DNA of 64,000 nucleotides, from the NCBI GenBank assembly GCA_943735955.1, contig OX030955.1:14570583-14634582 (forward strand), read 5' to 3'. Every line of letters begins with the position of its first letter. The stretch's first letter is position 1. Origin of the DNA: Piscicola geometra. Its lineage: Eukaryota; Annelida; Clitellata; Hirudinida; Piscicolidae. The notes beneath the pieces were generated by a model, which ran no database searches, had not been told where the DNA came from, and saw only the letters and a program-made list of their open reading frames with translations. Made by a program: the position numbers and the translations under genes. This document shows positions 54,279 to 64,000 of the stretch, in pieces.

Positions 54279-57200
54279 GAGACGAAATACAAAGTAGCAA
54301 AGACTTCTCCACTCCTCAAGCAGGGCCTGCCCGCCAGCAACTCGACCATCAAGTGCTTTGAAGAGGCGCAGCTGAAGAGGGTTCGTCTCATTTCAAACCA
54401 TTGGTTGTTTGCATTGAAGTTGAAGCCCTTTATAAACTGCTTTGTAAACTTCTTTATAAACTGCTTTGTAAACTCCTTTATAAACTGCTTTTTGTCTATC
54501 ATGCTGGTCTCTGTTTGAGATATCTCAACAATCGAGATCTGCAATTCAGCTCTTGTGATCTTGGCTACACAATTTGCACGACAATGGCAAGAATCTTTTA
54601 ATTGATTTAAGAAATAATTGATTCATAGCACTATAGTTAATGCATTTTAAAAACACAATGACAACTACTACTACCACCTTAAAATCACTTCTATAACACT
54701 CTCAACCACTACAAAAACTAATAAAGTTACAATTAAAAGCACCAATACAACCACCACTACAACCACTACTTTTTCCAACACAACGACCACCAGCACCACC
54801 ACAGCTACCACCACCACCACAACAACCACCACAACTACCACTACAACCACCACAACAACCACCACTACAACCACCACCACAACAACCACCACCACCACAA
54901 CAACCACCACCACAACAACCACCACAGCAACCACCTCTACAACCACCACCACAACGACCACAGGAAGTGCGCTACAAGAACCAGCCGACACAGAAGAGCA
55001 GCACAAAGGGAGACAGGTCCATCTCGGCTTCCTCCATCGATAGCTACAACTCATGTGACTTCTTGCACTTCCCATCTATCCATCCATCCATCCATCCATC
55101 CATCCATCCATCCATCCATCCATCCATCCATCCATCCATCCATCCATCCATCCACCCATCTATCCATCCATCCATCCATTCATTTGAATTTGCAATAATT
55201 TTCTCTTTACTTTGCATTCATCCATTTAAACAAATTATCCTATTATTGTCATTCATCACTCCTTCACTCTTCCACTCTTCCACTCTCATCAACTCCTCCT
55301 TAGCGTTTATTGAGGATAAGTTCTTGAGCATGCTGGCCCCTCATGCTGGTGCACAATCTGCTTGTTATCACTATGGCTTCTCATGCACACCTGCTCTGCT
55401 GTGCCTTCCCTGCACCTGCCAGCACTCCTCCTCTCCTGCACCTGCCAGCACTCCTCCTTCCCTACAGCAGACACTTCAGACGAGGATGACGTCAACCCGC
55501 GAGAGAAAGTGCAGGTCAGTGTCCTTGTACCACACTACACCACGCTGTACCACAACATACCGCATTGTATCAGTGACTATAGTCGTAAGCTATAACAAAT
55601 CATACTTACTATCTATTTTCACTTCCACAACACCACCCACACCTCCACAACACCACCCACACCTCCACAACACCACCCACACCTCCACAACACCACCCAC
55701 ACCTCCACAACATCACCCACACCTCCACAACACCACTCACACCTCCTCAACACCACCCACACCTCCACAACACCACCCACACCTCCACAACACCACCCAC
55801 ACCTCCACAACACCACCCACACCACCAACACCTCCACAACACCACCCACAGCACCCACACCTCCACAACACCACCCACACCTCCACAACACCACCCACAC
55901 CTCCACAACACCACCCACACCTCCACAACACCACCCACACCTCCACAACACCACCCACACCTCCACAACACCACCCACACCTCCACAACACCTCCCACAC
56001 CTCCACAACACCACCCACACCTCCACAACACCACCCACACCTCCACAACACCACCCACACCTCCACAACACCACCCACACCTCCACAACACCACCCACAC
56101 CTCCACAACACCACCCACACCTCCACAACATCACCCACACCTCCACAACACCACTCACACCTCCACAACACCACCCACAATTCCACAACACCACCCACAC
56201 TTCCACAACACCACCCACACTACCCACACCTCCACAACACCACCCACACCTCCACAACACCACCCACACCTCCACAACACCAACCACACCTCCACAACAC
56301 CACCCACACCTCCACAACACCACCCACACCTACACAACACCACCCACACCTCCACCTCTGGCACGACAACTCACCATGACAACAACTCACCACAACAACT
56401 CACATGACAACAACTCACCATGACAACAACTCACCATGACAACTCACCATGACAACAACTCACCATGACAACAACTCATCATGACAACAACTCACCATGA
56501 CAACAACTCACCATGACAACAACTCACCATGACAACAACTCACATGACAACAACTCACCATGACAACAACTCACCATGACAACAACTCACCATGACAACA
56601 ACTCACCATGACAACTCACATGACAACAACTCACATGACAACAACTCACCATGACAACTCACCATGACGACAACTCACCACAACAACTCACCATGACAAC
56701 AACTCACCATGACAACAACTCACCATGACAACAACTCACATGACAACAACTCACCATGACAACAACTCACCATGACAACAACTCACCACGACAACAACTC
56801 ACCATGATAACAACTCACCACGACAACAACTCACATGACAACAACTCACCATGACAACAACTCACCATGACGACGACTCACCATGACAACAACTCACCAT
56901 GACAACAACTCACATGACAACAACTCACATGACAACAACTCACATGACAACAACTCACCATGACAACAACTCACATGACAACAACTCACCATGACAACAA
57001 CTCACCACGACAACAACTCACCATGACAACAACTCACCACGACAAAAACTCACCATGACAACAACTCACCATGACAACAACTCACCACGACAACAACTCA
57101 CCATGACAACAACTCACCACGACAACAACTCACCATGACAACAACTCACCACGACAACAACTCACATGACAACAACTCACCATGACAACAACTCACATGA

Positions 57201-61794: not shown

Positions 61795-64000
61795 GCATCA
61801 TCATCATCACCACCACTCATTCACTCAAGCATCATCATCACCACCACTCATTCACTCAAGCATCATCATCACCACCACTCATTCACTCAAGCATCATCAT
61901 CATCACCACTCATTCACTCAAGCATCATCACCACCACTCATTCACTCAAGCATCATCATCATCACCACCACTCATTCACTCAAGCATCATCATCACCACC
62001 ATCACTCATTCACTCAGCATCATCACCACCACTCATTCACTCAAGCATCATCATCATCACCACCACTCATTCACTCAAGCATCATCATCACCACCACTCA
62101 TTCACTCAGCATCATCATCACCACCACTCATTCACTCAAGCATCATTATCATCACCACCACTCATTCACTCAAGCATCATCATCATCACCACCACTCATT
62201 CACTCAAGCATCATCATCACCACCACTCATTCACTCAAGCATCATCATCACCACCACCACTCATTCACTCAAGCATCATCATCATCATCACCACCACTCA
62301 TTCACTCAAGCATCATCATCATCATCACCACCACTCATTCACTCAAGCATCATTATCATCACCACTGCCACTCATTCACTCAAGCATCATCATCATCACC
62401 ACCACCACTCATTCACTCAAGCATCATCATCATCACCACCACCACTCATTCACTCAAGCATCATCATCATCACCACCACCACTCATTCACTCAAGCATCA
62501 TCATCATCATCACCACCACTCATTCACTCAAGCATCATTATCATCACCACCACCACTCATTCACTCAAGCATCATTATCATCATCACCACCACTCATTCA
62601 CTCAAGCATCATTATCATCATCACCACTCATTCACTCAAGCATCATTATCATCACCACCACTCATTCACTCAAGCATCATCATCATCATCACCACCACTC
62701 ATTCACTCAAGCATCATCATCACCACCACTCATTCACTCAAGCATCATTATCATCACCATCACTCATTCACTCAAGCATCATTATCATCACCACCACTCA
62801 TTCACTCAAGCATCATCATCATCATCACCACCACTCATTCACTCAAGCATCATCACCACCACCACTCATTCACTCAAGCATCATCATCACCACCACCACT
62901 CATTCACTCAAGCATCATCATCACCACTCATTCACTCAAGCATCATCATCACCACCACTCATTCACTCAAGCATCATCATCATCATCACCACCACTCATT
63001 CACTCAAGCATCATTATCACCACCACTCATTCACTCAAGCATCATCATCACCACCACCACTCATTCACTCAAGCATCATCATCATCATCACCACCACTCA
63101 TTCACTCAAGCATCATCATCATCACCACCACTCATTCACTCAAGCATCATCATCACCACCACCACTCATTCACTCAAGCATCATCATCACCACCACTCAT
63201 TCACTCAAGCATCATCATCACCACCACTCATTCACTCAAGCATCATCATCATCATCACCACCACTCATTCACTCAAGCATCATCATCATCACCACCACTC
63301 ATTCACTCAAGCATCATCATCATCACCACCACTCATTCACTCAAGCATCATCATCATCACCACCACTCATTCACTCAAGCATCATCATCACCACCACTCA
63401 TTCACTCAAGCATCATCATCATCACCACCACCACTCATTCACTCAAGCATCATCATCATCATCACCACCACTCATTCACTCAAGCATCATCATCATCACC
63501 ACTCATTCACTCAAGCATCATCATCACCACCACTCATTCACTCAAGCATCATCATCATCATCACTCATTCACTCAAGCATCATCACCACCACCACTCATT
63601 CACTCAAGCATCATCATCATCACCACCACCACTCATTCACTCAAGCATCATCATCATCACCACCACCACTCATTCACTCAAGCATCATTATCATCATCAT
63701 CACCACTCATTCACTCAAGCATCATCATCACCACCACTCATTCACTCAAGCATCATCATCATCACCACCACTCATTCACTCAAGCATCATCATCATCATC
63801 ACCACCACTCATTCACTCAAGCATCATCATCATCATCACCACCACTCATTCACTCAAGCATCATCATCATCACCACCACTCATTCACTCAAGCATCATCA
63901 TCACCACCACCACTCATTCACTCAAGCATCATCATCACCACCACCACTCATTCACTCAAGCATCATCATCATCATCACCACCACTCATTCACTCAAGCAT
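61795..64000 (+). repeat. About 30-bp minisatellite in AHCYL intron 9, runs off the window
   Basis: The unit is TCATTCACTCAAGCATCATC followed by a variable number of ATC and ACC triplets, so unit length varies from about 24 to 39 bp. About 75 copies are visible. The 15-bp core CACTCATTCACTCAAGCA is nearly invariant while the triplet part changes. The array starts about 33 bp after the donor at 61762. Confidence 0.97.

Follow-up and report, generated by a model that had tools for sequence, protein, structure and literature searches.

How can the introns of a conserved gene come to consist almost wholly of tandem repeats and leave the exons in frame, and is such a gene an oddity or one end of a wider pattern? 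The question is raised by a 64,000-nucleotide stretch of the Piscicola geometra genome (assembly GCA_943735955.1, contig OX030955.1, positions 14,570,583 to 14,634,582 of the forward strand), hereafter the window, in which the 5' portion of an AHCYL (S-adenosylhomocysteine hydrolase-like) gene occupies everything from about 54.3 kb to the end. Arrays detected with Tandem Repeats Finder (TRF) cover 7,720 of the 8,998 intron bases of this gene part and none of its 703 exon bases, and a base-shuffled copy of positions 54381-64000 returned 0% repeat. The array-filled introns between in-frame exons that had been described in the initial annotation are therefore real, and its view that expansion was local to introns and halted by exons is borne out by the same counts. 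Analyses of further genes and of the whole genome suggest an answer in which AHCYL appears to be the far end of a tendency shared more widely in a repeat-rich genome. Its arrays probably arose by slippage and unequal exchange in old introns, from GT/CA-rich tracts close to the splice sites, and were stopped by selection on the exons.

TRF coverage of introns 1 to 9 is 49, 39, 95, 30, 79, 94, 75, 94 and 99%, intron 9 being partial, cut at the window end. The proposed figure of about 95% for introns 3, 6 and 8 was thus accurate; that large parts of the remaining introns are array holds for introns 5, 7 and 9 and fails for introns 1, 2 and 4, which are under half covered. All lie on the plus strand. 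Intron 1 (54381..54963) carries an ACC/ACA array (54740-54961) that ends at the base preceding the final AG, and intron 2 (55055..55467) a CCAT array (55072-55183) and a 26-bp duplication (55409-55458). Intron 3 (55515..58100) is built from a 20-bp unit (55620-56355) and a 16-bp unit (56366-58089), intron 4 (58189..58693) holds a CCA-type array (58510-58659), and intron 5 (58795..58939) a GAT array (58813-58927). In intron 6 (59012..60302) a 28-bp array (59034-59796) precedes a 19-bp array (59826-60279), and in intron 7 (60357..60654) a GAT array (60362-60506) is followed by an ATC array (60569-60646). The GAT array of intron 8 (60727..61664) starts at intron base 2 (60728-60930), and its second, 16-bp ACA-type array (60985-61663) extends up to the last base but one. 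Finally, partial intron 9 (61762..64000) is occupied from 61780 by a 34-bp ATC/CACTCATTCACTCAAG array. Beyond the window, six more complete introns were read and five of them contain arrays; overall, arrays occur in 13 of the 14 complete AHCYL introns and make up 6,862 of their 8,482 bases.

The claim that each intron carries a different unit was only partly upheld. The 20-bp and 16-bp units of intron 3 and the 19-bp unit of intron 6 are each confined to one intron within 294,181 bases, bar one stray 14-mer, but GAT/ATC trinucleotides turn up repeatedly across introns 5-9, so that the AHCYL units are not all unrelated. The arrays hold many variant units instead of one collapsed consensus, and six of them contain internal exact repeats of 55-187 bp, which suggests recent block turnover or duplication.

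Between these arrays, nine exons translate in one frame, and GT stands at all nine donors and AG at all eight acceptors. They are exon A (54300..54380, its 5' limit approximate, with donor GTTCGT), B (54964..55054), C (55468..55514), D (58101..58188), E (58694..58794), F (58940..59011), G (60303..60356), H (60655..60726) and I (61665..61761), all on the plus strand, exons B to I measuring 47-101 bp. Seven further exons continue in frame downstream, at continued coordinates 69940-72285; the gene was read at 54300-64000 and 69940-72285, the stretch 64001-69000 between them lying outside view together with any exons it holds. The translation matches the Pfam AdoHcyase family (PF05221, E 3.2e-65; exon E falls in this match). 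Its best PDB matches, to which exon D contributes, are putative adenosylhomocysteinase 2 (8.5e-83) and adenosylhomocysteinase 3 (8.8e-83), against only 3.8e-54 for the best adenosylhomocysteinase (AHCY), which places it closer to AHCYL1/AHCYL2. Ahead of the AdoHcyase domain lies a Ser-rich N-terminal extension, seen in a 27-residue stretch encoded by exons B-C, which aligns weakly in tblastn with RSISQSSTDSYSS of a bird AHCYL2 (E 0.17). In a tree of 23 chosen AHCYL proteins, the window protein groups with Helobdella robusta and one other protein (SH-aLRT 98). Overall, this AHCYL gene of a leech-like annelid looks intact.

Is the array-filled state peculiar to AHCYL? The gene had been presented as singular, and this proved wrong. 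A small sample of genes was examined (six DEAD-box loci from among those marked by 38 matches, one CCT gene and two AHCY-family loci) alongside the window neighbour; from their translations we take three of these genes to be DDX46/PRP5, CCT5 and, in the window, RPS19; intron limits of AHCY, CCT5, RPS19, DDX46 and an AHCYL-like copy on contig C3 were set by eye from translation and GT/AG. Repeats occupy 3-12% of 5 kb in five DEAD-box loci and 44% in the sixth, the DDX46-like gene, which lies on another contig than the window (contig C1) and carries arrays in 10 of 11 introns; they take up 1,225 of its 1,734 intron bases and a single one of its 1,020 exon bases. Introns with at least 30% repeat number 12 of 14 in AHCYL and 10 of 11 in the DDX46-like gene, 1 of 9 in the AHCY paralogue, 1 of 7 in the CCT5-like gene (1 of 6 after one intron without an AG end was removed, which reduced the intron set from 46 to 45), 0 of 2 in RPS19 and 0 of 3 in the C3 copy. 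AHCYL and AHCY differ in array-rich introns with a Fisher p of 0.0007. RPS19 (51766..52356, minus strand, limits approximate), only 2 kb from AHCYL, is array-free as had been stated, with 0 arrays over 50501-53500. At least one further gene thus shares the array-filled state, which close relatives lack; AHCYL is not unique.

Two features escaped the initial annotation: the introns have a polarity, and arrays joined to splice-like junctions occur in excess. Across the 45 introns of the six genes, all of them GT..AG, the G+T fraction drops from 0.61 over the first 40 nt to 0.39 over the last 40, the 5' end being the richer one in 33 introns (p 1.2e-5). Because the DDX46-like gene had been picked as array-rich, the polarity was also computed without it and AHCYL, and it persisted (0.60 vs 0.42; 15 of 20 introns, p 0.004); AHCY alone shows it in seven of nine introns (p 0.02). 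Introns are therefore polarised, with a G/T-rich 5' end and an A/C-rich 3' end, including outside the two array-filled genes. Several array-poor AHCY introns open with a short GT-rich run and close with CACACA-type sequence. Averaged over the set, the 3' ends lack a polypyrimidine tract: the last 30 nt of the 45 introns contain T at 0.24, C at 0.28 and A at 0.33, with C+T at 52%, a T-rich end being seen by eye in one RPS19 intron and some others. The arrays themselves lie close to the splice sites. Of the 23 array-bearing introns of AHCYL and the DDX46-like gene, 13 have an array no more than 12 nt from the donor and 14 have one equally near the acceptor, when random placement expects 7.5 (simulated p 0.005 and 0.001, respectively).

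An annotation-free test extended these observations to the whole genome. Donor-like MAG joined directly to a (GT)n run was counted 162 times and its mirror image 54 times; for (CA)n running into acceptor-like CAG/G (the slash marking the junction) the counts were 409 and 48. In the background sample, short flank motifs with 11 or more occurrences have mirrored ratios from 0.66 to 1.32. The opposite-polarity donor arrangement MAG/GT(AC)n gave 10 vs 13 mirrored, and the donor ratio differs between polarities (Fisher p 0.003); the opposite arrangements are rare but contain more off-array letters, and are comparable by ratio only. In a list of 100 of the 162 donor-like sites, four were seen by eye to fall inside family-matched exons on the same strand or no more than 1.3 kb away, a raw count: C2:11373455 (near or in CCT exons), C5:6186788 (where AAG/(GT)n directly follows a DEAD-helicase exon), C7:6624831 (near or in DEAD exons) and C8:6714247 (near or in DDX46-like exons).

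The age of the introns relative to their contents can be judged from the AHCYL-like copy on C3, which by eye has introns at three AHCYL junctions, at the same codon and in the same phase. AHCYL carries arrays at two of these positions (TTCC; GTT plus CA) and the copy at none. Because the shared introns of the copy are array-free, the AHCYL introns seem older than their arrays. In this copy (L008 4614-4801), a GAT array extends as far as the coding sequence and no clear splice site separates the two; the copy may be decaying.

These results are most simply brought together as follows. The starting material would be the G/T-rich tracts that commonly follow a donor, and the C/A-rich ones that commonly precede an acceptor, in the introns read. 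Replication slippage would turn such tracts into micro-arrays, in which longer units and blocks would then be generated by unequal exchange or by gene conversion. Growth would be near-neutral inside the intron, and selection would halt it at the exon and at GT/AG, so that arrays would come to abut splice sites and neighbouring introns to carry different units. Array-filled introns would be removed by ordinary splicing. We infer slippage and exchange as the process, near-neutrality and normal splicing from sequence, and judge the scheme as a whole to be probable.

Several considerations weigh against it. Splicing is predicted from assembled DNA, array lengths are those of one assembly, and the DDX46-like gene was chosen for looking array-rich. 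The strong contrast between AHCYL and AHCY is left unexplained by the scheme. The third-position GC content of exons (GC3), a proxy of recombination or biased conversion, was rejected as a correlate of arrays and offers no explanation of this contrast (rho 0.02 over 11 gene pieces). In the junction test, the mirrored control takes array ends to be otherwise symmetric under reversal, and two longer background motifs gave mirrored ratios of 2 and 3 (2 vs 1; 3 vs 1). The opposite-polarity (GT)n-CAG/G is itself somewhat high at 11 vs 3 mirrored (p 0.06), and at acceptors the ratios for CA and GT cannot be told apart (Fisher p 0.19). Finally, in a list of 100 of the 409 acceptor-like sites, those listed being all on C1-C3, none fell by eye in a family-matched gene, again a raw count.

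Other explanations give the repeats or the region a different role. A recombination- or replication-stress-prone domain could turn any non-coding sequence into array, and both the intergenic and other arrays found downstream of AHCYL and the exact block repeats within arrays are what such a domain would leave. We nevertheless consider this rather unlikely, given that RPS19 is array-free so near by, that GC3, the usual proxy of biased gene conversion, is untied to array content, and that arrays lie nearer splice sites than random placement allows. It is even less likely, though compatible with the polarity, that introns of this leech lineage bear a two-ended code, G/U-rich after the donor and A/C-rich and polypyrimidine-poor before the acceptor, of which the arrays would be amplified copies, their expansion channelled by splice-site recognition and perhaps reinforcing it. 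A functional alternative, in which G/U-rich repeats at the 5' end of the pre-mRNA intron pair with complementary A/C-rich ones at its 3' end, draw the splice sites together and replace the polypyrimidine tract, was evaluated by folding 13 of the 14 AHCYL introns (intron 3 being left out) with 8 to 60 dinucleotide shuffles each. The polarity of 33 of 45 introns and the T-poor 3' ends agree with such an intron-definition device, and complementary repeats do occupy opposite ends of some introns (GAT then ATC in intron 7, GT-rich then CA-rich in some DDX46-like introns) and not of others, several arrays being one-sided (A/C only in intron 3; the GTA and TTCC introns). Seven of the 13 introns fold more stably than their shuffles (z of -2 or lower), but only two of the 13 bring the splice ends nearer than nearly all shuffles do (equalled by 0 of 8 shuffles in one and by 1 of 20 in the other), and in two others no shuffle put the ends farther apart. 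U2AF-large-subunit-like exons are also present in the genome, in order at C16:4641623-4646165 and in a second ordered set at C1:7088280-7096471, each match being below a family cut-off that is set for the whole protein; the C1 set could stem from a paralogue or from the related RBM39. RNA bridging in general is not supported by the folding, and we regard the device as very improbable. In fishes, AC/GT repeat introns with opposite dinucleotide repeats at their two ends, a likeness to some of the present introns, reportedly bridge splice sites, in contrast to the AHCYL introns, whose folding gave no general bridging.

Two last alternatives would reverse the order of events or dissolve the pattern altogether. 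That arrays made the introns, by tandem duplication of AGGT or by 'mirage'-like repeats, draws on array ends that provide GT or CAG at several junctions and on an origin of this kind proposed for amphioxus globin introns (PMC3087553). It can be set aside almost entirely in view of the three positions and phases shared, by eye, with the array-free introns of the C3 copy, and of AHCYL exons without a single base in arrays. An assembly artefact, with arrays misjoined or collapsed around real exons, has in its favour that long arrays are error-prone. It is hardly credible when the frame holds through nine plus seven exons, ordered on one contig with an unread stretch between, when a second gene on another contig is in the same state, and when the arrays consist of variant units.

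How does the slippage and exchange scheme relate to known systems? Amphioxus 'mirage' minisatellites (Adh3, globins) are gene-associated, lie at intron-exon boundaries as here, and are accompanied by regular splicing and length instability (PMC3087553); they duplicate the boundary including exon sequence, in contrast to AHCYL, in which no exon base and 13 of 14 introns are involved. Green algae share the junction bias and the motifs, with tandem repeats commoner toward intron ends and GT/AC abundant in introns (PMC3887541). That is a statistical trend over genes, whereas here, in an animal, whole introns are filled, long minisatellites included, with 5' G/T-rich and 3' A/C-rich polarity. Intron repeats are stranded in Daphnia, fly and bee as well, their motifs differing between sense and antisense, but in the Daphnia introns poly-T, CT and CTT dominate instead of G/T-rich 5' and A/C-rich 3' sequences (PMC3152781). 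Repeat-rich genomes are known in penaeid shrimp and in the leech Helobdella robusta, with 6.36% simple sequence repeats (SSRs), and orthologous genes of two shrimps have different SSRs in their introns (PMC7878876); these figures refer to 1-6 bp units. In the parts seen of these four papers, no gene combines nearly all-array introns, splice-site fusion and polarity. A literature search recognised no gene with nearly every intron array-filled, its coverage being partial and the evidence of absence weak. Parts of the AHCYL pattern are thus known system by system, and their combination appears, tentatively, to be undescribed.

The repeat content of sampled pieces of the genome is consistent with AHCYL being one extreme. 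In a genome of 171 Mb and 66 contigs, 18 pieces of 10 kb, all taken from within the first 5.4 Mb of contigs C1-C16, contain 31,818 bases of tandem repeat of all unit sizes among 144,681 non-N bases (about 22%), 6,474 of them in 1-6 bp units, with 7-60 bp units making up about three quarters of array bases. This is well above the animal norm of about 1% (PMC7878876). Counted as overlapping matches, exact 60-mers of GAT repeats number 5,713 and 6,224 on the two strands and those of the mirrored AGT repeats 66,821 and 70,047. One genome therefore spans short GT/CA-rich ends (AHCY, CCT5-like) to mostly-array introns (DDX46-like, AHCYL), and such a graded series makes the start and stop of tandem repeats in genes testable. 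The many acceptors without a T-rich tract, alongside U2AF-like exons, raise the matter of how such 3' splice sites are recognised.

Several minor observations accompany these results. The donor GTTCGT, far from the usual GTRAGT, opens 5 of 46 introns, all in AHCYL (introns 1, 4 and 5 and those at 71159 and 72006 in continued coordinates), and is the commonest donor hexamer among the 46. Between RPS19 and AHCYL lies a near-identical direct duplicate of about 200 bp (52408-52640 and 52869-53094). An AHCY intron of 1,575 bp (L009) contains a transposon-like block with CCCGTCCCGTTCCC ends, and the window has related CGGGAACGGG repeats of its own, at 30949-31107 and 32249-32455. Zinc-finger reading frames of C2H2-like type (by eye) at 18669-23700 on the minus strand stand amid ATG, TTG, TGT and AC arrays, possibly another array-bearing gene. 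A gene presumably of NEK8/9 type, on the minus strand at continued positions 94.7-104.2 kb, has kinase and RCC1-like reading frames (by eye) with CAT/TGA/ATG arrays between them. Elsewhere in the window, a 1.7-kb array at 8786-10512 has a 16-bp unit, GGGTGTTGTGATGGTT, with 95% matching and only two stray 14-mers in the rest of 294 kb. A 2-kb array at 32688-34702 has a 24-bp unit of A and T only (97% matching), GC being 10% over 32001-34000. An interstitial, telomere-like AACCCT repeat lies at 5418-5500, and a U6 spliceosomal RNA match on the minus strand at 42091-42199 scores 53.6 bits, above the Rfam gathering score.

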